Below the pieces are notes generated by a model. It worked only from the letters and a program-made list of their open reading frames with translations, had not been told where the DNA came from and searched no databases. A stretch of DNA of 38,550 nucleotides, from positions 1-38,550 of the IMG/VR virus record IMGVR_UViG_3300020462_000019. One strand, written 5' to 3'. Both the position numbers and the translations under genes were made by a program. Below, one piece after another: positions 3,058 through 36,871 of this stretch; within the stretch, counting starts at the first letter, position 1; every line of letters begins with the position of its first letter. The stretch is from a virus.

Positions 3058-4346
3058 TGTCAGATAATTCAAACAATGTAGCTGGTGCAGGCAATATTAA
3101 AGATTTTACCATTACCTCTAATGAGGGTGGTAAAACAGCTGATTTGTCTGCTGTTGTTGTAGATTACAGATACTATGAGAGTGTCTTATCCAATTCATAT
3201 ACAGCATCAGCAGTTATTATCGAAACTGGTAATGGTGGAGAAAGGAAAGGAACACTTGATGCACTTCCCATCAGAGGTGGTGAGGAATCAACAATATCCA
3301 TAACAGATAATAATGATCATACTTTGGAAGTTCCACTTTTTGTGAATAGAATTAGGGGTGGAGCTCCTGGAACACAGAAGGATATGTATGTTCTTGACTT
3401 CTCTTCAGAGGAGTATTTGACAAATCAACAAAAGAGAGTAACCAAGAGATATGAAGGTAAGATTTCAGATCATGTGAATTCTATCCTGAGTGAAGTGTTA
3501 GAAGTAAGTGGCAATGTTGATGTTGATGAAACTGCTTTTGATTATAACTTTGTTGGAAATCAAAAGAAACCTTTCTATACTCTCACATGGTTAGCTGCTA
3601 GAGCTGTTCCAGATGAAGGTGTTGGTGATGCAGCTGGATTTCTTTTCTTTCAAACCAGAGATGGGATCCACTTCAAATCTATTGATAAAATCTTTGGAGA
3701 AGAAGTATCAGATAAGAAATTTATATACAACAACACAGGAACTGAACCAGCGGAGAAAGATTCAAATATTATCTCATATACCATTGAGAGTGATACTGAA
3801 CTTCATCAGAATATGGTATTAGGAACATATAACAATAGAAGGATATATTTTGATATGTATGCCATGAACTATTATTTTCAAGATTATTCTATTGAAGAAC
3901 AAAAGGGTGGTGCTAAGAATGCTGCTAGGGAATCTGAGTTTGTGTCAAAGAAATTCACAGATGTTCCAACAAGAATAATGACAAATATATTTGATATTGG
4001 TACTAATCCAAAAGGCAAGGGAAATGAACAGTTGGACAATTGGAAACAAGATCCAGAGAATCCAAACTATAAAGCAGAAGAAACAATGTCTCAAACCATT
4101 ATGAGATATAACCAACTCTTCACTATTAAAACAAATATTATTATTCCTGGTGATTTCTCAATCAAGGCTGGTGATTTGGTTGAGTGTGATTTTCCTGAAC
4201 TAGAAGAGGGAAATCCCAAAAATACAAACAAAGAAACTGGTGGTATATACATGGTGGCCCATGTTTGCCATAAAATGACACCTAATGAATGTCTCACAAG
4301 TTTGGGTTTGGTTCGTGATTCTTACGGTAAGAAAGGAGGTTTCTAA
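3057..4346 (+). CDS. Baseplate hub protein, gp27-like
   Basis: The product has 429 residues, close to T4 gp27 (391). The N-terminus is a beta-rich domain, and FYTLTWLAARAVP about one third in is typical of the hub fold shared by gp27, gpD and VgrG N-termini. Near the C-terminus GDFSIKAGDLVECDFPELE resembles the final beta-barrel of such proteins. The start overlaps the previous stop (TAATG), and the next gene, a gp5-like OB-fold protein, overlaps this stop the same way. In T4, a gp27 trimer holds the gp5 trimer at the baseplate centre, so adjacency to a gp5-like gene supports the call. The assignment rests on length, fold-like motifs and neighbours rather than strong sequence identity. Confidence 0.6.
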   Translation: MSDNSNNVAGAGNIKDFTITSNEGGKTADLSAVVVDYRYYESVLSNSYTASAVIIETGNGGERKGTLDALPIRGGEESTISITDNNDHTLEVPLFVNRIRGGAPGTQKDMYVLDFSSEEYLTNQQKRVTKRYEGKISDHVNSILSEVLEVSGNVDVDETAFDYNFVGNQKKPFYTLTWLAARAVPDEGVGDAAGFLFFQTRDGIHFKSIDKIFGEEVSDKKFIYNNTGTEPAEKDSNIISYTIESDTELHQNMVLGTYNNRRIYFDMYAMNYYFQDYSIEEQKGGAKNAARESEFVSKKFTDVPTRIMTNIFDIGTNPKGKGNEQLDNWKQDPENPNYKAEETMSQTIMRYNQLFTIKTNIIIPGDFSIKAGDLVECDFPELEEGNPKNTNKETGGIYMVAHVCHKMTPNECLTSLGLVRDSYGKKGGF

Positions 4347-7192
4347 TGATTGAACAAGGATTATTTAAGAATCACCAAATAGGTAAGGATGGATTCAATT
4401 GGTGGATCGGTCAGATTGCACCTGAAGAATCGTGGAAAGAAAACATTCCTGGTGTTCCTGTAGAAACTAACGAAGACGAATCCTATAAGGGATTTGGTGA
4501 AAGGTGCCGTGTGCGTATCATTGGTGCCCAAACACATGAAAAGAGTGAGGTTTCTGATGAGGAACTTCCATGGGCAACTGTGATGTATCCTGTCACTGCT
4601 GGTGGCGGTGGTAGAGGATCATACCAATCAATGAATTTGGTTGGTGGTAACTTTGTATTTGGTTTCTACATTGATGGTGATGATGCCCAACAACCAGTTA
4701 TCATGGGTGCCATTGGGTATAATGATTATCAGGAGGTGATGAAACAAGCTGGTGATACTGGGTTTATTCCTCACAGTGGATGGAATCAAGAGCAAGAAGG
4801 TAATGAGGTTCCATATTATAGTATAAAAGAAGGTGGCTCTGGGATGACAGCAGCCCAAGAGTTTGCTTTTGGTGCTAAAAACAATGATCTGATTATTGAG
4901 AGTACTCAGGGTTCCAATTCTCTCAAAGAGATGTCTTCCAAGAAGATGGAAGAGAAGGGTAAGATAGAAGAACCCATGGCCAAAAATGAGGATTGTGAAC
5001 CAGTCCCAACAAACAGAATCCAGAAACAAATGCAGAATGTGATGCATGAGATGGAATCTGTTCAGAGATCTGCTTATGATATTAGAGAGGCAATCTCATC
5101 TGGAACTTCTGATATTCAAGGAAAGATTGCTGGATTACAAGCCAAGTTGGCAAAGTTTGTATCTTCTATTATGAAGTCAATCTTCTCACAGATTGAGAAG
5201 ACTGTATTGAAAGCACTGAATGATGCTGTTAAGCCAACACAGAATCTTCTCATGCCAAATGAGAGACCAATACTCAAAACAGCAATGGATACAGCAAATG
5301 ATCTGATTGCTTGTTTGTTCAAGAAGATCTTTGGTCAGTTACTTGATATGGTAATGGGTTTTCTTTCTGATGCTCTTGGTACTGGGGGAAGTGGTGGTAG
5401 TGGTGAAGGTCAGAAGGTTATCAATGTTCCTACTTGTTATGTGAATGATTTTATTGGTAGTGCTATTGGATCAGTTAGTAATGAGATTGACAGTGAACTC
5501 AGTGGTATCACATCAAATTTAAATGGTATTCTAGATGGTATGTCTGCAGCTTCATCAGCTGCTGGTGGATTATCTTCTGCGGCTGATGGAGCAGCTGGAG
5601 CACTTGGATCAATTGGTGATATGGGTGGGTTTGATATTGGTAGTATCATACAAGATCTGTTCTCTTTCTTAGGATGTGAAGAAGAAAACAAGTGTCCAAC
5701 AGTAGACACTTGGAGTATGTGGTACGGTATGGATAGTGGTAACTCCAATTCAATGTCAAATATGGCATCCATTGGTTCCAAATCCAAATCCAAATCAAGT
5801 AAGAATAAGAATGTTGGTGATGGATTCAAGGATATGTCTTTTGATGACATATACAGTGAGAGTACTTGTGGAAATAATAGAAGCGGCAATAATGGTGGAG
5901 GAAGTGGAAACAATGGTGGTGGAGGAAGTGGAAACAATGGAGGAGGTAGTACAGGTGGTAACAATAATAATATAGGGAACAGTACACCTGGATATGATTG
6001 GGGTAATGGTGGTACTATTGATCCAATCACATGTGGGCCACCACTTGTTAGAATTACTGGTGGATGGAATGCAAAAGGAAATGCTATTGTATCTCAATCA
6101 GGTAAGGTATTATCAGTTGATATTACAGATCTGGGTGTCAATTATGATAGTTACAAATCAAGAATTATTGTTATAGATCAGTGTGGTAAAGGAAACAATG
6201 CTGTCCTAATTCCTATCATTGATGAAGTGACTGTAACATCTAATGATGATGGAACATTGAACCTTAATCATGGTGGAATGAATACCACGATGCGGGGAGC
6301 CAGGATGTCATCTGGTAATCTTGGATATGAGGACTCAAGAGGGACACTAATACCTATCCTTAATAAGGATGGTGCACCAGTTAAGGAAGGTGATGTAACT
6401 AATAGTGTTGTTGATGGTATAATTATAAAACCTGGTACTGGATACTTACCATCACCTGATGGATCTCTTGGTGGAGATAAAAGAGAGTGGGCAAGACCTG
6501 ATGATACTATTATTAGAAAGCCTGGTGGTGGGTGGTTAACACCTGTTCCTCCTGGTAATGATATTGATCTTGAACCTGGTGATACTGTTACTACACCTGG
6601 ATCATCAAATCCTGTTTATGCAGAACCTGGAGAACAGTTAATCAATCCTGGTGTACCAACAATAATTGAAAACACTTCAACCATTACTGCACCACCAAGA
6701 AGGCCTGATGCCGGTATTTCTGCAGAATATCCAACAAATAGTGAAGGTGCATATCCAGTTGTTCTGTATCTTTGTGAAATCGTTATCCTTAATCCTGGAT
6801 TCAATTATTCACCTAATGATGAGATTGTAATATCACCAAACAGTGGTGCTGTGGCAGTTCCTAAGTTTGATAAACAGGGAAGAGTATTATCCATCAAAGT
6901 AACAAAAGGTGGTGAAGGATTCACTGATATTCCATATATCTACATCAAATCACAAACTGGTTATAATGCAAAACTAGTTCCTAAGTTCTGTATAGATAGA
7001 GTATCAGATGCATTGAGTGAACCAAAATCTCAAGATAAGTTGGTTACTGTTATTGATTGTGTGAGTAGATCACCAGTTGGATATCTCAATGGAAAACCAT
7101 ACTACGGACCTTATCATGAACATAAAGGTGTAAGAATGGTCGGATACAAACACACTTCCGCAAAACATGCAACACTTACAGCTAGACCATGA
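4346..7192 (+). CDS. Baseplate hub/spike protein with gp5-like N-terminal OB domain
   Basis: The product has 948 residues. Residues 1-150 look like the OB-fold of T4 gp5: an N-terminal FNWWIGQIAPEE, then CRVRIIGAQ, LPWATVMYPVT and GNFVFGFYIDGDDAQQPVIMG, in the same order as in gp5. No lysozyme domain follows. There is instead a helical section (about 220-320), a Gly/Ser/Ala-rich section, and a Gly/Asn/Ser linker (about 508-545) encoded by short direct DNA repeats near 5880-5960. Beta-rich repeats then carry GTGYLPSP and NPGFNYSPNDEI type motifs. The C-terminus YYGPYHEHKGVRMVG is a tail often seen on phage structural proteins. The TAATG start overlap couples it to the gp27-like gene, and the ATGA at the end couples it to the spike-like gene. 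The lytic function seems to have moved to the amidase protein upstream. Confidence 0.68.
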   Translation: MIEQGLFKNHQIGKDGFNWWIGQIAPEESWKENIPGVPVETNEDESYKGFGERCRVRIIGAQTHEKSEVSDEELPWATVMYPVTAGGGGRGSYQSMNLVGGNFVFGFYIDGDDAQQPVIMGAIGYNDYQEVMKQAGDTGFIPHSGWNQEQEGNEVPYYSIKEGGSGMTAAQEFAFGAKNNDLIIESTQGSNSLKEMSSKKMEEKGKIEEPMAKNEDCEPVPTNRIQKQMQNVMHEMESVQRSAYDIREAISSGTSDIQGKIAGLQAKLAKFVSSIMKSIFSQIEKTVLKALNDAVKPTQNLLMPNERPILKTAMDTANDLIACLFKKIFGQLLDMVMGFLSDALGTGGSGGSGEGQKVINVPTCYVNDFIGSAIGSVSNEIDSELSGITSNLNGILDGMSAASSAAGGLSSAADGAAGALGSIGDMGGFDIGSIIQDLFSFLGCEEENKCPTVDTWSMWYGMDSGNSNSMSNMASIGSKSKSKSSKNKNVGDGFKDMSFDDIYSESTCGNNRSGNNGGGSGNNGGGGSGNNGGGSTGGNNNNIGNSTPGYDWGNGGTIDPITCGPPLVRITGGWNAKGNAIVSQSGKVLSVDITDLGVNYDSYKSRIIVIDQCGKGNNAVLIPIIDEVTVTSNDDGTLNLNHGGMNTTMRGARMSSGNLGYEDSRGTLIPILNKDGAPVKEGDVTNSVVDGIIIKPGTGYLPSPDGSLGGDKREWARPDDTIIRKPGGGWLTPVPPGNDIDLEPGDTVTTPGSSNPVYAEPGEQLINPGVPTIIENTSTITAPPRRPDAGISAEYPTNSEGAYPVVLYLCEIVILNPGFNYSPNDEIVISPNSGAVAVPKFDKQGRVLSIKVTKGGEGFTDIPYIYIKSQTGYNAKLVPKFCIDRVSDALSEPKSQDKLVTVIDCVSRSPVGYLNGKPYYGPYHEHKGVRMVGYKHTSAKHATLTARP

Positions 7193-7818
7193 CAGAAAGT
7201 AAAGATAAGAAAAAGAATTATCATACAGTACGATATGGTACTGCAGAAGGTGAGATAAAGTTTGGCCATCTCCACAGAGATGGTGAACTTTCTGGAGCAA
7301 TGTTGAGGAATGGTAGTGCATCCTCAAAGGGTAATCATTATATTACTCTTGAAAGTGGTGGTGATAAAGGAAGAGAGAATGGTACATTTTGTTCTTCACC
7401 TGGATCTTTTCAGGTAAAGGCTGGTTATGACCTAGAGAATGAAAGTAGTAGTGAGGAAAATAAGCACATTGGCATCTACATGGATGCTGTCAACGGTGAC
7501 ATTGTAATTCGTGCCCCATCAGGACGTATTAGAATGGAGGCAGTTGATATTGATATCACTGCTACTGGTCAAGATAATGAACATGGAACTGTGTTTATTA
7601 CTGGTAACGAGAAGGTTATTGTAAAGGCACAAACAATTGATGTAAATTCTAAAGTTAGTTCAAAGTTCTTTTCTGAGAAAACTGTAGAAGTAGTTGGAAA
7701 TGGTTTGTTAAATATATACGGTGGATTAGTAGATTGTGCTGATGGTGCAACTTCCGTAATAGGTTCTAAGATGCCATCAAAAAATGAAGAACAACATAAA
7801 TCGAGGCTTGGAGTATGA
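7189..7818 (+). CDS. Beta-helical spike-like protein (gp5 C-terminal/VgrG-like repeats)
   Basis: The product has 209 residues. The second half runs through short alternating-hydrophobic repeats such as NGDIVIRAPSGRIRMEA, VFITGNEKVIVKAQ and LLNIYGGLVDC. This periodicity is characteristic of the triple-stranded beta-helix needle at the end of T4 gp5 and VgrG proteins. The first half begins with a basic segment and contains GEIKFGHLHRDGE and ITLESGGDKG, also beta-rich. It overlaps the gp5-like gene at its start and the next gene at its end, both by ATGA. The likely role is part of the membrane-piercing spike, encoded here as a separate polypeptide. No PAAR tip motif was recognised. Confidence 0.55.
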   Translation: MTESKDKKKNYHTVRYGTAEGEIKFGHLHRDGELSGAMLRNGSASSKGNHYITLESGGDKGRENGTFCSSPGSFQVKAGYDLENESSSEENKHIGIYMDAVNGDIVIRAPSGRIRMEAVDIDITATGQDNEHGTVFITGNEKVIVKAQTIDVNSKVSSKFFSEKTVEVVGNGLLNIYGGLVDCADGATSVIGSKMPSKNEEQHKSRLGV

Positions 7819-8507
7819 AGTTTCCTGACGTATTTGTAGGTAAAAGGTTTTTTGTAGGACTCGGTAGACCCGAGATTCTAGGTAGAGGACCAAAAGAAGT
7901 TCGTGGTTCTGCATACATTGAAGGACCAGAGATTGTAGGTAATCCAGAGCTATTCTCTCCAAAGGCTATTGCTAAAGGAGAAGCCGGACCTTCATTTGAA
8001 CTTGGTGCTTCGATGGCATCTCAGAATACCAATACTGAGATGATTCCCCCACCATTCTATGCACTCTTTGTTAGGATGTATGCAAGGATTGCATCTTTCC
8101 TCAAAGTAGATACACTTTTGTGTGTTGATAGAATCAAAACTAGGATCATCTATTCTGAGGTGATCATGGCAAAGAATAAGAACTTTGTCATTCCTCATCC
8201 TTCAGAAGAAGGTAAGAATCTAGTATACTCTTGTTTGGAAGGACCAGAGAATGGTGTTTATGTTAGAGGAACACTAAGAAACAACAATACAATTGAACTT
8301 CCACCTTATTGGAAAGATCTGGTTCATAATGATTCTATTACAGTATCATTGACTCCTGTTGGTTGTCATCAAGATTTGATTGTAACCAGAGTCAGTAACG
8401 AAGTGGTTGTAGTTCAGACACAATCACCATACCCTATCCAATGTTTCTACCATGTTTATGGTGAAAGAAAGGATATCAGAAAATTAGAAGTAGAGGTTGA
8501 CGCATAA
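7815..8507 (+). CDS. Virion structural protein with CLEGPE-type beta domain
   Basis: The product has 230 residues. The N-terminal third includes RGSAYIEGPEIVGNPELF, a pattern seen in baseplate-associated phage proteins. The C-terminal half begins KNFVIPHPSEEGKNLVYS and continues CLEGPENGVYVRG, then LPPYWKDLV and VSLTPVG. This domain recurs in phage fibre and baseplate proteins, often next to S74 chaperone modules. The neighbouring gene at 8507 carries the same domain with different details, so the two appear to be paralogues. The start overlaps the previous stop (ATGA) and the end overlaps the next start (TAATG). Inferred to be a baseplate or fibre-attachment component; no enzymatic motif was seen. 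Confidence 0.6.
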   Translation: MKFPDVFVGKRFFVGLGRPEILGRGPKEVRGSAYIEGPEIVGNPELFSPKAIAKGEAGPSFELGASMASQNTNTEMIPPPFYALFVRMYARIASFLKVDTLLCVDRIKTRIIYSEVIMAKNKNFVIPHPSEEGKNLVYSCLEGPENGVYVRGTLRNNNTIELPPYWKDLVHNDSITVSLTPVGCHQDLIVTRVSNEVVVVQTQSPYPIQCFYHVYGERKDIRKLEVEVDA

Positions 8508-9310
8508 TGCCAGCATTCGTTTTTAAGCAGTTTGGAACATTTATTGGTCCACAATTCTTAGATAAAACATACAGTTATGATATAGTATCCAAAGAAGCAT
8601 TTTGGCATACAGATATCCCCATCGATACTTCATTCAAGAAGACCGATTTGGGGTATGTTGGATATTCCGCTCCTGGTGTATATGCAGGTCATCACTTTGA
8701 TGGTATTGCCACTGTAAGGTTGACACTTGATTCATCAATGGGTCATATTCCACTTTACTTTCATCAGGTTAAACAATCCTTTATCAATGGTAATGTGGTT
8801 GCCAATGGAGTTCATCTCCAAAATGGTACTGCTATTGTCAATGGTAAGCTTACCACTACAAGTTCTGTATCAGGTAGTTATAAGGGTCCAATCAATAAGC
8901 AGGGCTGGAAAGGTTTTGATATTGAGCACCCTAAGAAGGAAGGAAAGAGAATAAGACACATTTGTGTAGAAGGACCAGAAGCAGCAATCTATATTCGTGG
9001 TAGATGTAAGGATACTAATGTTATCAATCTTCCTGAATACTGGGATGGGTTGGTAGATATTGATCAGTTGAGTGTAAACCTTACTCCATTTGGTGTACCT
9101 CAAAACCTATATGTTGAAGATGTTAAGTGGGGTAAACAGGTTATCATTAAGAATTCAGATGGTGGACCTGTTAATTGTTACTATCAGATCTGGGCACCAA
9201 GACTTGGTGATTTAGTTGTTGAATATGATGGAGAGAGTGCTGCCGATTATCCAGCCAATCAAGATGAACATTCTATTTGTGGATATCACTACGATAGGAG
9301 GGAATCATGA
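8507..9310 (+). CDS. Virion structural protein, paralogue of the preceding gene
   Basis: The product has 267 residues. Residues from about 134 read GFDIEHPKKEGKRIRHI, then CVEGPEAAIYIRG, LPEYWDGLVD and LSVNLTPFG, aligning segment by segment with the C-terminal half of the preceding protein. The N-terminal half differs (YVGYSAPGVYAGHHFDG) and probably gives a distinct attachment surface. The start is coupled by TAATG and the end by ATGA. Role inferred as baseplate or fibre-attachment protein. The His/Tyr-rich C-terminus (ICGYHYDRRES) is not explained. Confidence 0.58.
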   Translation: MPAFVFKQFGTFIGPQFLDKTYSYDIVSKEAFWHTDIPIDTSFKKTDLGYVGYSAPGVYAGHHFDGIATVRLTLDSSMGHIPLYFHQVKQSFINGNVVANGVHLQNGTAIVNGKLTTTSSVSGSYKGPINKQGWKGFDIEHPKKEGKRIRHICVEGPEAAIYIRGRCKDTNVINLPEYWDGLVDIDQLSVNLTPFGVPQNLYVEDVKWGKQVIIKNSDGGPVNCYYQIWAPRLGDLVVEYDGESAADYPANQDEHSICGYHYDRRES

Positions 9311-10374
9311 CAATTGCAGTAGGACATACAGATGATATATCATCTGGATTTGGTACATTTGGATTACCCAATAGTTATTTTGGTGGTATTTCAGGAAATC
9401 TAGAAGCTCAAATTGTTGCTTTTAGTACATATACCAATGATTCAAAAGACATATATCAAGGAAGATATGATGCAATCTTAGAGCCATTAGAAGCAATTGA
9501 TGATAAGATTGTGACTGATTACTTGGTTCCAATCAATACAAAGAAGCAACAGATTCAAACATTGGGACAATCCTCTGTTTGGGTAGCTAACCCACAAACA
9601 TATTCATCATCGACTGCAGCTCTGAGTGCTATAGAAACAATCTATCAGGAATCCAATACTGACAACGACAATCAGGCATGTACTGTTATTGGTTTTACCA
9701 CTTTTCCTGGTTTTGGTGGTACTGCTGGAACGGTTGTTACACAAGGAACTACTGATCTAGAAGGAGAAGTTACAATTACAGCCAGAGGTACAGTATCCTT
9801 TACTGGATCTCCAATGGTTCTTCAGGATGTTGAAGGAACATTCTCATCTCTATACCCACTTACTGTTGGTGTCACTTCAATTGGAGCTCCAACTGCAATT
9901 TCATATACTGGATTGACCAACATCAGAGAAGATGTTGTTATGGTTACTCATTTTACAAAAATGGAACCACCTGACAATAGTGTGGATAATCCTTATGCAA
10001 ATGATCAATACCCACTTCTTGATGCAAACACCAATGGTGTGGGAGCTGCTCAAACATTCTTCCCAAATGCAATTGATACTATAGCCGGAGGAAACCCTAC
10101 TATCTCTGCCGCACAGAACTATGGTAAAGTATACACTAGTTCCTCAGCAACAAACAACAGTCAGATTGATACATTAGATTCTGAGATTGTTACTTTAAGA
10201 GCTGGTATTACTACTTATAATGATGGTGCCAATGTTCTGAAAGAACTCAAAACCTCATACGCTTTGGCTATATGGTCATACGAAAGAGGCAACAAACTGA
10301 ATGATGAGGAACTTGCGAAGTATCAAAACGCTATAAACATATTGAGAGACCCATCTATTGGTGGACCATATTAA
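9307..10374 (+). CDS. Structural protein of unknown function, last gene of baseplate operon
   Basis: The product has 355 residues and no recognised domain. It contains helical, charged stretches (LEPLEAIDDKIVTDYLVP and a C-terminal NKLNDEELAKYQNAINIL) flanking a beta-rich Thr/Gly/Val central part (TARGTVSFTGSPM). The start overlaps the previous stop by ATGA, so it is translated with the baseplate genes. A GC palindrome follows immediately. Position at the end of the hub operon suggests a tail component, but nothing in the sequence gives a specific role. Confidence 0.55.
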   Translation: MTIAVGHTDDISSGFGTFGLPNSYFGGISGNLEAQIVAFSTYTNDSKDIYQGRYDAILEPLEAIDDKIVTDYLVPINTKKQQIQTLGQSSVWVANPQTYSSSTAALSAIETIYQESNTDNDNQACTVIGFTTFPGFGGTAGTVVTQGTTDLEGEVTITARGTVSFTGSPMVLQDVEGTFSSLYPLTVGVTSIGAPTAISYTGLTNIREDVVMVTHFTKMEPPDNSVDNPYANDQYPLLDANTNGVGAAQTFFPNAIDTIAGGNPTISAAQNYGKVYTSSSATNNSQIDTLDSEIVTLRAGITTYNDGANVLKELKTSYALAIWSYERGNKLNDEELAKYQNAINILRDPSIGGPY

Positions 10375-10388
10375 AAGTGTCACACTCT

Positions 10389-10402
10389 CCCCCCGCGGGG
10401 GG
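10389..10402. terminator. Perfect GC palindrome, possible transcription stop or mRNA-end hairpin
   Basis: CCCCCCGCGGGGGG is a 14-bp perfect palindrome, 15 bases after the stop of the baseplate operon, in otherwise AT-rich DNA. As RNA it could fold into a short very stable hairpin. No T-run follows, so it is not a standard intrinsic terminator. It may instead protect the 3' end of the upstream message or pause polymerase. Confidence 0.4.
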
Positions 10403-10432
10403 ACAAGGTAAACTATAATACAGAGGTAACCA

Positions 10433-10663
10433 ATGGAACCTATGGAAAATCTAACCCCAGAAGGAGATTATCTGAGTCGTGTAGTTGTTGATGTTTCTTC
10501 GCGAACATTTCGAGTTTACTCTATTTCTGGTGAAGAGAAGCAAATTGTTGCAGAAAGTATGGATGACTTTCTTGGGATACATCAGTTCATCCGTGATTTT
10601 ATAGCTAGTGGTCTGTTTGATGAGGACATGGTAGTATATTGTTCACCTATGGTAACGTCATGA
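10433..10663 (+). CDS. Small conserved-type cyanophage protein, function unknown
   Basis: The product has 76 residues. ATG 10433 is preceded by AGAGGT at 10422-10427, a good ribosome site. It is acidic with a compact alternating pattern (LSRVVVDVSSRTFRVYS) suggesting a small alpha/beta protein, and has no motif I recognise. A TATAAT at 10414-10419 lies too near the start to be a normal promoter for this gene. Its stop overlaps the start of the next small gene (ATGA), so it heads a translationally coupled trio placed between the baseplate and fibre operons. Confidence 0.6.
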   Translation: MEPMENLTPEGDYLSRVVVDVSSRTFRVYSISGEEKQIVAESMDDFLGIHQFIRDFIASGLFDEDMVVYCSPMVTS

Positions 10664-10839
10664 GACCAAATACTAGAGAAGCTATGGAGATGTTGTTTTG
10701 TGCAAGGTGGAATGTTCCAACAGCATCAAAACATTGTGGATTAACAGTAAAGGAGATGAAGATAACATTTAATGAGTATTGTAGGCTACACACCAAAACA
10801 TATAAGGATGAAAAACACAATCAATTGCATCTTTTCTAA
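10660..10839 (+). CDS. Small protein with possible helix-turn-helix
   Basis: The product has 59 residues from ATG 10660, which overlaps the previous TGA. An upstream TTG in frame is a less likely start. The central part, ARWNVPTASKHCGLTVKEMK, has the spacing of a short helix-turn-helix (ASKHCGLTVKEM resembles turn plus recognition helix), and the rest is basic. It could bind DNA or another protein. The TAATG at its end couples it to the next ORF. The HTH reading is tentative because the protein is very short. Confidence 0.6.
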   Translation: MRPNTREAMEMLFCARWNVPTASKHCGLTVKEMKITFNEYCRLHTKTYKDEKHNQLHLF

Positions 10840-11003
10840 TGAAAATTAATCTCTGGTGGTCCAGACATGCTCAAGAATGGAGGTGGAGTTTATGTGATGA
10901 CAGTACACTTCCAATGAAACAAGAGAGTGGAGGACAGAAAGATCTTAGAGATACAATGAACGATATCGCCAATACAATCGAGCATATGATGCATACTAAA
11001 TAA
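10839..11003 (+). CDS. Small protein, function unknown (54 residues)
   Basis: ATG 10839 overlaps the previous TAA, and the frame ends with TAA at 11001-11003. The product starts MKINLWWSRHAQEWRWSL, rich in Trp, then becomes hydrophilic and probably helical (LRDTMNDIANTIEHMM). Its stop codon lies within a CTAAATA late-promoter box for the next gene. No family was recognised; the coupled overlap is the main evidence that it is real. Confidence 0.55.
   Translation: MKINLWWSRHAQEWRWSLCDDSTLPMKQESGGQKDLRDTMNDIANTIEHMMHTK
10996..11002 (+). promoter_or_regulatory. T4-like late promoter box CTAAATA
   Basis: CTAAATA ends 27 bases before the ATG of the giant fibre gene. It resembles the T4 late core TATAAATA. 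Similar boxes precede the genes at 17542, 20497, 23721 and 33853, which strengthens the call. It overlaps the stop of the preceding small gene. Confidence 0.6.
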
Positions 11004-11029
11004 GTAATAATAGATATTGCGCGAGTAAG

Positions 11030-14000
11030 ATGCCTCTCAGTCGCTTAGATAATTTCCTAAAGAATGTCCGTGGAAATACGATTTATGTAAATCCTCAGGA
11101 CTTGGATGCTACCGACGATACCACTAATACTGGTAACTCGATGGGCAAACCCTTTGTTACCATCCAAAGGGCACTTCTCGAAGCCTCAAGATTTTCATAC
11201 CAAAAAGGTTTCTCCAACGATAGATTCGGAAAAACCACTATTGTTCTTGGTGCTGGTGATCACTATATCGACAATAGACCTGGTTGGATTCCTGACGGAG
11301 AAAACAATTTTAAAACCAGAGGTGGAAATGTTAGTAGTGAATTCTCAGAACTGACTAACACCACCAACTTTGATATTACAGACCAAAATAATACTCTTTA
11401 CAAACTTAATAGTATCTACGGTGGTGTGATTGTTCCCCGTGGTACTTCTATCATTGCTAATGATATTAAGAAGACAACGATCAGACCTTATTATGTCCCA
11501 TCACCAACCAACAATAATATTGAAAGAAGTGCAATCTTCAGAATTACTGGTGGTTGTTACATTTCTAACTTTAGCATTTTAGATGCAGACCCAAATGGGT
11601 TCAGTTATGATGATTATACGAATATAAGAGTTAATCCAAACTATTCACACCACAAACTCACAGTATTTGAATACGTCGATGGTGTAAACCAAACCAGAAT
11701 TGATGACGAGTTCCAAACTTATTTTACAACCAGAACTGATCTGGATATGTATTATGAGAAGGTAGGACTTCTTTATGGAAATCTATCTGGTCGTGCAATT
11801 GCACCAAACTACCCTGACTCTGAAGTAGATATTCAAACTAAGGTTGATGAGTATCGTATTGTCGGTGCAATTAGTGGTGAAGTTGGTATTACCAGTATTA
11901 GATCTGGTGATGGTGTTACACCAAGTGAAATCATCAATGTATCTTTAGAAGAAGGAATTGCTGGTCTCAATGCAGATAGTGATTTCATCATCGATGGTGT
12001 TTCTGATTCACTCTACAATGGTTCATACTCTGTACGGAGTGTGGAGACACAAGATGCAGATGGAAATACAACATCATTTACCTATGAAGTTTCAGTAGTT
12101 CCTGAAGAGCCACTCCCACCAGTTTCTGGTTCAACAGTCACATTGGACGTTGATACTACTGTTGGATCATCTCCTTACTTTGAGAATATCACTCTGAGAT
12201 CCACTTTTGGTATGTGTGGTGCACATGCTGATGGATCTAAGGTATCTGGATTTAAGAGTATGTTGTTCAACCAGTTTACTGGTATCGGACTTCAGAAAGA
12301 TGATAGTGCATTTGTCAAGTTCAATTCATCTAGTGGTACCTTTGATGATAAGACAAGTGTTGATAATATTCATGCTGATCCCAATGCAAAGTATAAGCCA
12401 GAGTATTATAACTATCACATCAAAGCATCCAACAATGCTTTCTGTCAATTAACTTCCAACTTCTCCATTGGATATTCTCGTCAACTTGTATCCGAAAGTG
12501 GTGGTGAGTTCTCAACATCTGGTTCTACTTCAAACTTCGGTCAAACCTCACTCTCTGCCTCTGGTTTCAGAAATAAGGCATTCGATAAAGATGATATCGG
12601 TTATATCACCCAGATCATCCCACCAACTAACATCAACCCTGGTAATCTTAACATTGAGTATGGTTCTATCGATGTAGAAAGAACAATCAATGGAACAATA
12701 AGTAGACTTTACCTCTACTTAGAGACAAACAAAGATAATCCACCACCATCAGTCATTCAAGGGTATAGAATTGGTGCTAAGGTTGATGACCAAATCTCTG
12801 TCATCTTAACGAGAAATAAGGTTCCAACACCTTACTTTGCGAAAATTGTGATGCCTCCTACACAAGGCACACCAAGTGAAGCATCTTCTGTTAAGGTTTC
12901 TGAGGTAGAAAGAAGTTCGGCCACTGGAAACAACATTGTATCCAATACGATTACCTTTAATTCTAATCACCAGTTTGAAAATGGTGAAACTATCAGAGTT
13001 GTTAGTGATAATGCTAGACTTCCTGATGGTTTGAATTCAAATCAGATTTACTTTGCAATCACTTCTGGTGTAAATCCAGATCAAATTCAAGTTGCTGCCA
13101 CACCAAACGATGCGGCTAGTGCAATTCCTGTTCAAATCAACAACCTTGGTGGTAACTTAACTGTTGAATCTAGAGTTAGTGATAAAGTTGCTGGTGATAT
13201 TGGTCACCCTGTTCAATATGATGATGCTGTAGATCAGTGGTATGTGAACGTATCATCGTCCACAATTCACAATACGATCCAAGAGACTCTCGAAAGTTTG
13301 GGAACCGTTGGACTTGGTGAGGCTACACCTAGAACATTCCTTACAAGACAACCCGCTTCTAGAGGTCTAGATGATACTATCTACAAGCTGAGATATGTTA
13401 TTCCAGCTGGTAGTGGTATTACATCTGCTAGGGCACCTAGAGAAACATTTATGATCAGTGACTCCGGTGATGTCACTGGTGCAACTAATGATGAAGTAGA
13501 TCTTCAGTTTAACCCTGGTTCAGTTACCATGGGTAATGAAAATGACATGAGGAACTTCAGTTTCATCCGTCATGCTGATTGGAGTGGTGGAACTGCATCA
13601 TATACAACAGAACTACCTCACAATGTTTCTGTTGGATCTAAAATTGAAATTGAAAATGTAACCAGTACCAATAACACGACTGGTGTTGGTGGTTCTGCTT
13701 ATAATGGAACATTCACTGTTACTGGTATCACCAGTGCTAATCAATTTGAAGTAACTGGTACTTCATATGATCCTGGTTACTTTAACAATGATACTTCTTC
13801 TAGGGTCACAACTCTTCCAACGTTCAAGAAGGTAACTAGTAACACCAATCTCTACATCTATAACGTTGATCAGATTTCCGAGTATGTAACTGGTGAACAA
13901 GATGGTGTCTATTACTTAACAGGTGTTACTGCTGATAATGTACCACAGGTTGCACCTTTCAATGATCCTGAAAACTTCTCATTCTCACAACCAATTGTAG

Positions 14001-30268: not shown

Positions 30269-30373
30269 ATGAAGTACTCAGGACTAGAGAAACTTATCTT
30301 CCTATCTTCTACAGTATGGTTACTTCATTGGGGAGTAAGATTAACACAGGTGAGTATCAATGCTTTATATTGA
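30269..30373 (+). CDS. Possible 34-residue single-span membrane peptide
   Basis: ATG 30269 opens a 34-codon frame ending at TGA 30371-30373, overlapping the next start by 14 bases. The centre LIFLSSTVWLLHWGV is hydrophobic enough for one membrane helix, with Lys/Arg on both sides. The ribosome site is weak. Small membrane peptides are common in cyanophages, but this may be a chance ORF. Confidence 0.35.
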   Translation: MKYSGLEKLIFLSSTVWLLHWGVRLTQVSINALY

Positions 30374-30683
30374 AGAGGGGACCAGAGAGACTGCCTTGAG
30401 TGTTTCTAACTGGTTTATGAAGGAATACCTATCTGACTATCATATCTTCCTCACAGTGGAGGATAGAGACCTCTCAGAGGAGGGTGTAGATGGGTGGTGT
30501 ATCAAAGAAACATCCAATGAGTTTCTGATACAAATACACAATGGATTAATGTATGACTACATACCTACACTCCTACATGAACTTTATCATGTTCTCCAAC
30601 ACTTAGAGGGAAGAGAACAAGATGAGTATGAGGCTTATCGTAAAGAAGTTGAACTGCTTGACAAGTACATGAATAAGGGGTAG
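30360..30683 (+). CDS. Mini HExxH zinc metalloprotease-like protein
   Basis: The product has 107 residues with AGGTGAG at 30347-30353. TLLHELYHVLQHLEG holds an HExxH motif (H73, E74, H77), and E89 or E91 in QDEYEAY is placed as a third ligand, as in gluzincin/SprT-like proteins. The protein is shorter than typical proteases, so it may be a minimal zincin or a metal-binding protein without protease activity. The end of the gene contains a consensus -35 element for the next transcript. Target unknown; host-protein processing early in infection is one possibility. Confidence 0.6.
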   Translation: MLYIEEGTRETALSVSNWFMKEYLSDYHIFLTVEDRDLSEEGVDGWCIKETSNEFLIQIHNGLMYDYIPTLLHELYHVLQHLEGREQDEYEAYRKEVELLDKYMNKG

Positions 30684-32497: not shown

Positions 32498-32624
32498 ATT
32501 GTTCACATATGAGCAATACTCAAGAGATATTGATAATATTAAAGATATTGAACAATTGAGACTCATTGCAAAAAACCATGTGAGACTATACCTCAAGCAA
32601 CAGGAAGTTCTTGCTAGTTTGTGA
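32460..32624 (+). CDS. Small helical protein, function unknown
   Basis: The product has 54 residues with AGGAG 5 bases before ATG 32460, one of the stronger ribosome sites here. It contains EQYSRDIDNIKDIEQLRLIA and ends RLYLKQQEVLASL, a helical pattern I have seen in small cyanophage proteins. It overlaps the preceding gene by 38 bases in another frame, and its end contains the -35 of the next promoter. Confidence 0.65.
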   Translation: MNPLDIKLNTPSKLFTYEQYSRDIDNIKDIEQLRLIAKNHVRLYLKQQEVLASL

Positions 32625-32640
32625 GTGTGATACATATAAT
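32611..32640 (+). promoter_or_regulatory. Candidate sigma70 promoter of the secreted HExxH protein
   Basis: TTGCTA (32611-32616) and TATAAT (32635-32640) are separated by 18 bases. A start near 32647 leaves only about 9 bases before ATG 32656, giving an almost leaderless message. Confidence 0.45.
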
Positions 32641-32655
32641 AAATTATTGGTTATT

Positions 32656-33318
32656 ATGAAAAAACTATTATTGGCTTTGGCTCTGTCCTCTGTATTTGCT
32701 CCGGTCATTGCTGAACCAATCAAACCATCTGATTACAATACACTTCATGCAATGGGGTGTATGTTACTTCAAGAGTGTACTGATGGTGTGATTGAAATCA
32801 AATCAATGAGAGATCTTGAGAAACATTATGGTCAGGATTATACTATTAGTCCTGTAGAGTTCAATGAGCTCATCAAAGCCTCTAATGGTGCTGGTGTAAA
32901 GGTATATCTTGCACCTAATAAGTATTTCCTTGCTATGAACAGAGGTGTTTATCATACTGTTGGCAATAACTTCTTCTTGAATGAAGATTATATGAATGAT
33001 TCTGCACAGCTGATGTCAGTCATGAGACATGAGGGTTGGCATGCTGTTCAGGATTGTATGGCAGGAACAATTAATAACACCATGATTGCCATCGTTCATG
33101 ATGAAGATGATGTTCCACAATTTTGGAAGGATATTGCAGAAGATACATATCCAGCTAATGTACTTCCATGGGAGCAGGAAGCGATGTGGGCAGGAAGAGT
33201 GGAGAATATGACACTGAACGCACTTAGAGTTTGTGGAAGTGATAAGAAACTCTGGGAAGTATATGAGCCAACTCCACTGACTAGGAAATATCTCGTAGAG
33301 CAGGGATATATCAAGTGA
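32656..33318 (+). CDS. Secreted HExxH metalloprotease-like protein
   Basis: The product has 220 residues from ATG 32656. MKKLLLALALSSVFAPVIAE is a clear Sec signal peptide with cleavage expected after A19, a feature rarely seen on phage proteins. SVMRHEGWHAVQDCM holds HExxH (H125, E126, H129); a downstream Glu such as that in WEQEAMWAG may complete the zinc site. Cysteines around 35, 41, 134 and 199 could form disulfides in the periplasm. The protein would be exported to the host periplasm or thylakoid lumen. Possible roles are remodelling of envelope proteins or help in lysis. No family match beyond the zincin motif is claimed. Confidence 0.65.
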   Translation: MKKLLLALALSSVFAPVIAEPIKPSDYNTLHAMGCMLLQECTDGVIEIKSMRDLEKHYGQDYTISPVEFNELIKASNGAGVKVYLAPNKYFLAMNRGVYHTVGNNFFLNEDYMNDSAQLMSVMRHEGWHAVQDCMAGTINNTMIAIVHDEDDVPQFWKDIAEDTYPANVLPWEQEAMWAGRVENMTLNALRVCGSDKKLWEVYEPTPLTRKYLVEQGYIK

Positions 33319-33816: not shown

Positions 33817-33823
33817 CTAAATA
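33817..33823 (+). promoter_or_regulatory. T4-like late promoter box CTAAATA
   Basis: CTAAATA ends 29 bases before ATG 33853, the same distance as at the virion genes upstream. It is the only such box seen in the right-hand 13 kb, so the gene it serves is probably expressed late. Confidence 0.58.
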
Positions 33824-33852
33824 GTATCTGGTATTAGTTCTCTCTTATTACT

Positions 33853-34449
33853 ATGACTTTTCTGGAGTTTATGACTGAAGGCAAGGCCTTAGACCCTAGT
33901 TTAGCTGGTGGTGCATCTATCAGACAGACTGGAGCTGGTGGTCGTAAGTATCCAGAAAGGAAGAAGGGTGAAGGTGAGAGAACGAGAGTAAAAGCAGTGG
34001 GTGGTGGTAAAACTGCACCCGCTGCTTCATATAAAGATAGAAAGGATATTGGAGCAACTAAAGCACGTTCTGATGTAGAACAACAACCTACCAAAGAGAG
34101 AGGTAGTGCAGCTCTATCAGCTAAGGAACAACAAAGGAAGGCTTACTTAGAGAGAAAGGCGAGAGAAAGAGGTGGATCTGCAGCACCAAAGAAGAAAGAG
34201 GCAGAGAAGACAGCTACACAACTACTCAAGAAGAAGACAACCAAGGCTGTATCACCTGATTACAAACCAGCCAAAGCTTCTGGTCATACTAGAGCTGAGA
34301 GAGATAAGATTAGAGGTGATGGTGAGAGAATGTTGAGAGGTATCATGAAGGACCAAGAGACCTCCAAGTATAAGAAAGAAACTGGTGTTAATCCTGATGC
34401 TAAAGGAAGACAAAAGATTCTGGGAAGGGTTAATGCCAGGATGAAATGA
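33853..34449 (+). CDS. Very basic late protein, candidate internal head protein
   Basis: The product has 198 residues, strongly basic and Lys/Arg/Gly/Ala-rich with hardly any hydrophobic core (for example KKEAEKTATQLLKKKTTKA), suggesting a disordered nucleic-acid-binding protein. The first residues MTFLEFMTEGKA resemble the capsid-targeting sequence of T4 internal proteins (MKTYQEFIAEA), which the head protease gp21 removes after Glu; MTE-G would be the matching cut site. A CTAAATA late box precedes it and an intrinsic terminator follows it, making a one-gene late transcript. Predicted role: packaged in the prohead with DNA and possibly injected into the host. The targeting-signal match is short, so this is inference. 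Confidence 0.55.
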   Translation: MTFLEFMTEGKALDPSLAGGASIRQTGAGGRKYPERKKGEGERTRVKAVGGGKTAPAASYKDRKDIGATKARSDVEQQPTKERGSAALSAKEQQRKAYLERKARERGGSAAPKKKEAEKTATQLLKKKTTKAVSPDYKPAKASGHTRAERDKIRGDGERMLRGIMKDQETSKYKKETGVNPDAKGRQKILGRVNARMK

Positions 34450-34459
34450 TGTTATAATA

Positions 34460-34484
34460 AGAGGGTTAGACACCCTCTTTTTTT
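34460..34484 (+). terminator. Rho-independent terminator abutting the next start codon
   Basis: AGAGGGT (34460-34466) and ACCCTCT (34472-34478) form a 7-bp stem with a 5-base loop, followed by a run of seven T ending at 34484. The ATG of the next gene is at 34485, so the terminator fills the position of its ribosome site. Confidence 0.82.
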
Positions 34485-35166: not shown

Positions 35167-35328
35167 ATGACACGTCCCGAACCACTCCTTTCATTCTCTG
35201 ATTATGTTGAGGATTTTAAGGCAAGGGTTGAAATTCACAACTATGAGGTGAAGAATCTCCGAAAGGATATTAGATTTGGATTTGATTTCCTATCAGACAG
35301 AATCTATTTCAATCTTGTGAACAAATGA
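35167..35328 (+). CDS. Small protein behind leader repeat 1, function unknown
   Basis: The product has 53 residues: MTRPEPLLSFSDYVEDFKAR, then helical and basic (VKNLRKDIRFGFDFLSDRIY). There is no ribosome site; the bases before ATG are pyrimidine/A-rich (CCTACTTACTAC). The start is set by its position relative to the repeat, the same as in the four other repeat-led genes. An intrinsic terminator follows 7 bases after the stop, making it a one-gene cassette. Confidence 0.62.
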   Translation: MTRPEPLLSFSDYVEDFKARVEIHNYEVKNLRKDIRFGFDFLSDRIYFNLVNK

Positions 35329-35334
35329 TAAACG

Positions 35335-35357
35335 AGGGAGGGAAACCTCCCTTTTTT
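35335..35357 (+). terminator. Rho-independent terminator with GAAA loop
   Basis: A 7-bp stem (35335-35341 with 35346-35352) with a GAAA tetraloop is followed by TTTTTT. It separates the first repeat-led gene from the second and is followed by TATACT and repeat copy 2. Confidence 0.88.
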
Positions 35358-36211: not shown

Positions 36212-36871
36212 ATGTCCGGTAATCACAATCACGACCACGACCACCACGATCATTCTCATGAGTGGGAACATGATGGTCGATTTGAAGCAGTCATTGGCAG
36301 ATATGAGGATGGCGATGGTTGGTGGGCATCTTATTTCACTGATTTAATCAACAATTCAGATGGCATCATTGATATCCATATTGCCGAGGACACGATGAGT
36401 CATCAGGAGATCGAGTTCATCAACGAGTTGATTGATGATATTGAGGAAGTTATCGACACAGAAATTCAAATTGAATCAAGGAAAGTTGACTCTGACATTA
36501 CAATTGCAAGAGTACTTGGTTATGAACAATTTGATGTATTGACAGGTATAGATTATTCTGACGTTGATGGACTCGCATTCCTTGATGAGGATGGTGATCA
36601 CATCTTTGCCACATTCAATGACTCTGAGTTTGAAACTGAACCGGTATATAATGAATATGGTGATGTTGTAGATTTCAACACAACACTTAGTGATGATACT
36701 AAGTACGTTATAGCACACGAACTCCTTCACGCTCTGGGGTTACAACATCCAGACGATGATGGATATAATGTTGGATACACGGCAGACGATACTCTGATGA
36801 GTTACAATCGTACAGGAAACTTTGATCTTACTAACATAGATTCCACAGCTCTCGATACCCTATGGGGGTGA
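36212..36871 (+). CDS. Serralysin-like metzincin with His-rich N-terminus
   Basis: The product has 219 residues. IAHELLHALGLQHP is a full metzincin zinc site: H169, E170, H173, G176, H179, P180. TLMSYNR with M196 provides the Met-turn at the right distance, and the end DSTALDTLWG parallels the last helix of M10 serralysin catalytic domains. No RTX calcium repeats follow, so it is a bare protease domain. The first 20 residues hold eight His alternating with Asp/Asn (HNHDHDHHDHSHEWEH), a likely zinc or other metal store or sensor. No signal peptide is present, so it would act in the cytoplasm or be carried by the virion. It is preceded by leader repeat 3 and followed by repeat 4. Confidence 0.8.
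   Translation: MSGNHNHDHDHHDHSHEWEHDGRFEAVIGRYEDGDGWWASYFTDLINNSDGIIDIHIAEDTMSHQEIEFINELIDDIEEVIDTEIQIESRKVDSDITIARVLGYEQFDVLTGIDYSDVDGLAFLDEDGDHIFATFNDSEFETEPVYNEYGDVVDFNTTLSDDTKYVIAHELLHALGLQHPDDDGYNVGYTADDTLMSYNRTGNFDLTNIDSTALDTLWG

Follow-up and report, generated by a model that had tools for sequence, protein, structure and literature searches.

A conserved N-terminus resembling the T4 capsid-targeting sequence in a basic, probably late protein family of marine cyanophages

Introduction

The closest described counterparts of the locus considered here are the internal head proteins of coliphage T4. IPII and IPIII both begin with MKTYQEFIAEA, as read from the T4 record, and within this capsid-targeting sequence (CTS) residues 4 and 7 of IPIII have been mapped to targeting and residues 8 and 10 to processing (PMC9026906). 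Among cyanophage proteins, the nearest parallel is a cytidylyltransferase/NMNAT-like protein (T4-GC190; gp154 of S-CREM2, S-SZBM1_140), which has been reported from the virions of several cyanophages (PMC3037559, PMC10665884, PMC9146016, PMC9602691). It carries the same N-terminal tag as the family described below and, in S-SM2, a late box, as does the family member of that phage. However, this protein is an enzyme, and its mature part is unrelated to the family protein.

The window, that is, the whole 38,550-nucleotide stretch of viral DNA analyzed here, is a 38.5-kb fragment in which long tail-fiber-type genes are followed by many small genes. One of the latter (33853..34449, + strand) encodes a 198-aa basic, CTS-bearing protein whose family is conserved in T4-like cyanophages. 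Like IPII and IPIII, this protein combines the tag M-(K-T)-aromatic-x-x-F-hydrophobic-x-E with small size, basic charge and a predicted single propeptide cut after Glu. In contrast to them, its mature part is mostly disordered and bears no visible sequence similarity to theirs, and a late box lies directly upstream of its gene, whereas the T4 ip genes have none within 60 bp. Very probably, a T4-like cyanophage packs this protein inside its head by way of the CTS; the head protease would then trim it, and it would reach the host together with the DNA. There is strong support for capsid targeting and for an internal-protein character, and late expression is probable, because the tag and the late box are conserved and the same tag occurs on virion-detected proteins of S-CREM2.

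The gene and its putative targeting sequence

Differences between the gene and its 85% identical relative L007 are concentrated at third codon positions (73, against 19 at position 1 and 18 at position 2), indicating a real gene under purifying selection. Two opposite-strand reading frames (33834-34094 and 34252-34473) overlap this frame and were therefore set aside. The full-length product has a pI of 10.3, compared with 8.9-9.5 for full-length T4 internal proteins, a net charge of +26 and a K+R content of 26%. Its predicted mature part (189 aa, pI 10.4, net charge +28) is thus small and basic.

The sequence-only reading had likened the N-terminus to the T4 targeting peptide, a comparison that holds up. 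The CTS-like segment MTFLEFMTE (33853..33879, +), read with the following Gly, is one residue shorter than MKTYQEFIAEA and, with a one-residue shift, matches the T4-type pattern of an aromatic residue at position 4, Phe at 7, a hydrophobic residue at 8 and Glu at 10. With a family matrix trained on relatives only, the window protein being left out, it scores 13.7, a value reached by 8 of 87,200 shuffled N-termini and by 1 of 436 real cyanophage proteins. T4 IPIII, also absent from the training set, scores 17.2, which none of the 87,200 shuffles matched. When the matrix included the window protein itself, the start of this gene ranked best among the 861 possible starts in the window.

The prohead protease (gp21) is predicted to cut at the Glu9|Gly10 junction (33877..33882, +). 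MTE|G fits a head-protease site, in which a hydrophobic residue, any residue and Glu precede a small residue, and the gp23 proteins of two cyanophages have LTE|A near the expected cut, at a place equivalent to Glu9. Together with the invariance of this Glu in the family alignment, these likenesses make head-protease cleavage at Glu9 likely. Among the nearest relatives the following residue is variable (Gly in the window protein, Ala in L007 and L077, Lys in L078), which leaves the precise position of the cut uncertain. A search of the phage's own genome showed the record to consist of the 38.5-kb fragment alone.

Conservation of the tag across the family

A profile scan found at least 533 relatives in IMG/VR. 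Protein searches placed the family in ten phage records, all from cyanophages or marine viruses (T4-like cyanophages and single-cell marine viruses): P-TIM68 and S-SM2 (SSM2_065, T4-GC 1186), which are counted twice each, SynMITS9220M01, S-B05, RN05-S, RB11-B and two AG-345 fragments. In the Kyanoviridae isolates S-SM2, P-TIM68, SynMITS9220M01 and S-B05 these proteins are annotated as hypothetical. The corresponding homologs (SSM2_065, AIR93418, SynMITS9220M01_053 and QCW23008) are about 53-56% identical to the window protein over the matched part, but in S-SM2 and S-B05 the C-terminus is swapped. A pattern scan of bacterial genomes returned no relative, and a nucleotide search of phages with the window gene gave no match. 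Searched alone or with 17 members, the protein had no hit above cut-off in Pfam and no family match in PHROGs; a weak CSLinker match (17.2 bits against a cut-off of 27) was ignored.

The tag is retained throughout most of this diversity, with the consensus MKTFqeFxxE. A CTS-like start is present in all 43 distinct sequences kept in a first set of relatives, in which starts were chosen by a loose pattern and then inspected by eye, and in 51 of 51 newly read complete relatives of a second set, from which two further sequences cut at a contig end were excluded. The sole exception among the complete relatives read is the distant L066. Exact T4 register, with an aromatic residue or Leu at position 4 and Phe at position 7, is seen in 37 of the 43 sequences of the first set, and 17 of 43 likewise conform at positions 8 and 10. 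An alignment of 17 diverse members shows Phe6 and Glu9 to be invariant and Phe3 nearly so; the conserved positions are those tied to targeting or processing by mutational work in T4 (PMC9026906). The earlier expectation that homologs would share the motif is thus borne out in nearly every complete relative.

In several relatives the tag is separated from the conserved part by about 40-120 residues of unrelated inserted sequence, with Glu usually retained directly before the conserved YD block (TNE|VYD, SSE|AYD). The anti-restriction protein IPI of T4 has the same layout of tag, spacer and ITE|A cut. A removable piece whose ends are conserved while its interior is free to change is what would be predicted for a targeting propeptide.

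Highly basic, disordered proteins are common and short motifs are easily over-read, so that the N-terminus might be an amphipathic helix that arose by chance, on a late protein that simply binds DNA or RNA in the cytoplasm. This reading is very improbable: few shuffled sequences score as well without self-training, the tag is retained in nearly all complete relatives while the adjoining sequence varies, and it is associated with virion proteins in S-CREM2 (see below).

Other arrangements of the family protein were also seen. In L027, L028, L038 and L116 it runs into a long basic extension (from about SESYNDPEH to YGSGS) that resembles a fusion of two internal proteins, and in L116 it is in addition fused to a different upstream protein. 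In L007 (1-321), the closest relative of the first set, the frame is read through from upstream with no Met at the tag (EQYTFEDFMEAKALD); the tag may thus also act internally or as a cleavage linker.

Predicted late expression and gene neighborhood

Late cyanophage promoters have been described as NATAAATA (PMC2984593). A CTAAATA box assigned to the window gene by the sequence-only reading is indeed present at 33817..33823 (+), 36 bp before the ATG, with a spacing that is conserved in relatives. CTAAATA occurs four times in the window, which is not above chance; boxes of the form [CAT]TAAATA are nevertheless concentrated in the interval 20-80 bp before gene starts in the window (7/10, binomial p = 7e-7, with the starts taken from our own list). 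Across the family, 60 of 93 distinct sequences have [CA]TAAATA at most 60 bp before the start, mostly at 29-33 bp, against a background rate of about 0.05 per 120 bp. Of the 33 genes that lack a box, 32 begin before a small upstream gene has reached its stop codon, and this upstream gene is itself preceded by a box in at least 26 cases. Judging from the conserved box, nearly the whole family would be expressed late. L004, L008, L015, L017 and others have, directly upstream, a further conserved gene that encodes about 62 aa (with an end like DGKNGGFKNATVVE) and extends across the family gene's start; the late box that it bears serves the two genes together. The window gene has no such immediate neighbor. 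The small protein is possibly a partner of the family protein.

Downstream of the gene, a hairpin at 34459-34479 (stem AAGAGGGT/ACCCTCTT, 8 pairs, loop of 5) followed by a T run resembles an intrinsic terminator (34459..34484, +), in agreement with the terminator of its own that had been assigned to the gene. The further claim that this gene alone among the small genes combines late box and terminator stands only in part, since 35167-35328 also has a terminator (35334-35353); that gene, however, lacks CTAAATA.

Binding to the scaffold core is a property of such tags, and T4 gp22, gp67 and gp68 are likewise core proteins (PMC9026906). The window protein might accordingly be a prohead core or scaffold component that aids in building the head, most of it being degraded or expelled instead of injected. 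The location of its gene, in a small-gene cluster near tail-fiber or helicase genes and outside the gp20-gp23 head module, speaks against this. Moreover, the family was found in only ten phage records, all of them from cyanophages or marine viruses, so it is no core component shared by cyanophage heads in general. A core or scaffold role is therefore improbable.

The small-gene cluster also encodes three proteins with HExxH motifs (30360-30683, 32611-33318 and 36212-36871), the variants being HELYH, HEGWH and the metzincin-type HELLHALGLQH, which suggests several metalloproteases in one region of the window.

The predicted disordered middle and helical C-terminus

AlphaFold models a short helix over the tag and assigns low confidence to residues from about 11 to 140. 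The basic, low-complexity middle, predicted to be disordered on the basis of the alignment and the model (about residues 11-142; 33883..34278, +), contains the conserved blocks GGR, GGGK, YKxRxDxG and QQPxxxRG. The C-terminal region (residues 147-198; 34291..34446, +) is confidently predicted to form helices at 147-177 and 183-197 (pLDDT about 90). The previous description of the remainder of the protein as highly basic and disordered thus applies to the composition and the middle region but not to the helical C-terminus. Other sequences take the place of this region in part of the family, the C-terminus being exchanged between subfamilies.

A fold search with the model matched no solved structure. 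It gave one strong viral model match, A0A4Y5P1C2 (220 aa, 40% identity), whose length is that of the S-B05 homolog. T4 IPI* folds into a compact inhibitor (PMC3012670); a compact alpha/beta fold of this kind is absent from the window protein model, which is mostly disordered with C-terminal helices.

The tag on virion proteins of other cyanophages

Mass spectrometry has identified 52 virion proteins in the related cyanophage S-CREM2 (PMC10665884, Table 3). When the annotated genes of this phage were translated, leaving out the very long gp85, tags in T4 register were found only in gp6 (SAM hydrolase), gp13, gp14 (APH-like kinase), gp136 and gp154 (the cytidylyltransferase). All five carriers are on the virion list, compared with 0 of 167 undetected proteins (Fisher p = 6e-4, an optimistic value because the pattern positions, although taken from the T4 literature, were fixed after the hits had been seen). 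With the family matrix, four virion proteins rank first in S-CREM2. When matrix ranks were tested across the full set of virion proteins of this phage, the result was not significant (p = 0.17), as expected if few virion proteins are internal cargo. The S-CREM2 study makes no mention of targeting sequences; its authors suggested that non-structural virion proteins were either packaged or carried over in purification (PMC10665884).

Five virion-detected S-CREM2 proteins with CTS-like N-termini form a run at 3837-13331 (OR473000): gp6, gp12, gp13, gp14 and gp15, comprising the SAM hydrolase, a Cas9-like nuclease, the kinase and two small proteins. The tag of the Cas9-like protein, LRFASFMAE|A, is internal (residues 17-26); gp15 begins with MNFSEFNE.

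Tag rankings in other cyanophages point to the same proteins. The top-scoring protein of S-SZBM1 is the virion-detected cytidylyltransferase (MRFRQFIIE|A); its tag-bearing proteins 191 and 192 are absent from the virion list, a shallow one of 30 proteins. Of the 1,528 ATG starts in S-SM2, those of the cytidylyltransferase and the family member score highest, and both have late boxes. In P-TIM68, the family member ranks first and the cytidylyltransferase third. Two more basic proteins of P-TIM68 (KM359505) have CTS-like starts, MKTYKEFIQD (+27) at about 118770 and MKSFIDFSEN (+32) at about 107819; by eye, the former resembles the N-terminal part of S-CREM2 gp6.

Proposed role in infection

We infer that the family protein is present in the virion of the window phage, cleaved, bound to DNA and injected. 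Late transcription of the gene would start at its own CTAAATA promoter, and the first nine residues of the protein would target it to the capsid by binding the prohead scaffold. Cleavage after Glu9 by the gp21 head protease would leave a 189-residue protein of charge +28 among the packaged DNA, where the basic, disordered middle may neutralize or bind DNA and the C-terminal helices may add binding or oligomerization. By analogy with the T4 internal proteins, the mature protein would then enter the host together with the DNA.

As to its role after entry, DNA binding or charge neutralization appears to fit the composition best. An injected effector that counters host defense or reprograms the host, as T4 IPI or Alt does, with DNA binding as an incidental property, was the candidate function put forward by the sequence-only reading. 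The targeting route is shared with IPI, a blocker of a restriction enzyme (PMC3012670), the S-CREM2 tag is also found on the SAM hydrolase, the kinase and the cytidylyltransferase, and the C-terminus differs between relatives. However, the protein has no known domain, no match to a solved structure and no compact fold in its model, and the conserved middle, basic and disordered, is better suited to DNA binding. A counter-defense function is accordingly unsupported and seems unlikely, though less so than a core or scaffold role.

Implications for cyanophage biology

The probably head-loaded basic protein would represent a new family within a mechanism class already known from T4. The head-loading tag, worked out in that coliphage, is now seen in a widespread, unannotated cyanophage family. 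Its presence on S-CREM2 virion proteins argues for packaging of the non-structural ones rather than carry-over in purification, and allows testable predictions, based on the mechanism known from T4, of which cyanophage proteins enter the host with the DNA. It is somewhat probable that one conserved tag loads a large and changing head cargo in marine T4-like cyanophages, so that the injected proteins of uncultured phages could be listed from sequence. The proposed cargo comprises the basic family protein, the cytidylyltransferase, the SAM hydrolase, the kinase and perhaps the Cas9-like nuclease. If this is true, few injected proteins of cyanophages would be as widespread as the basic family protein.
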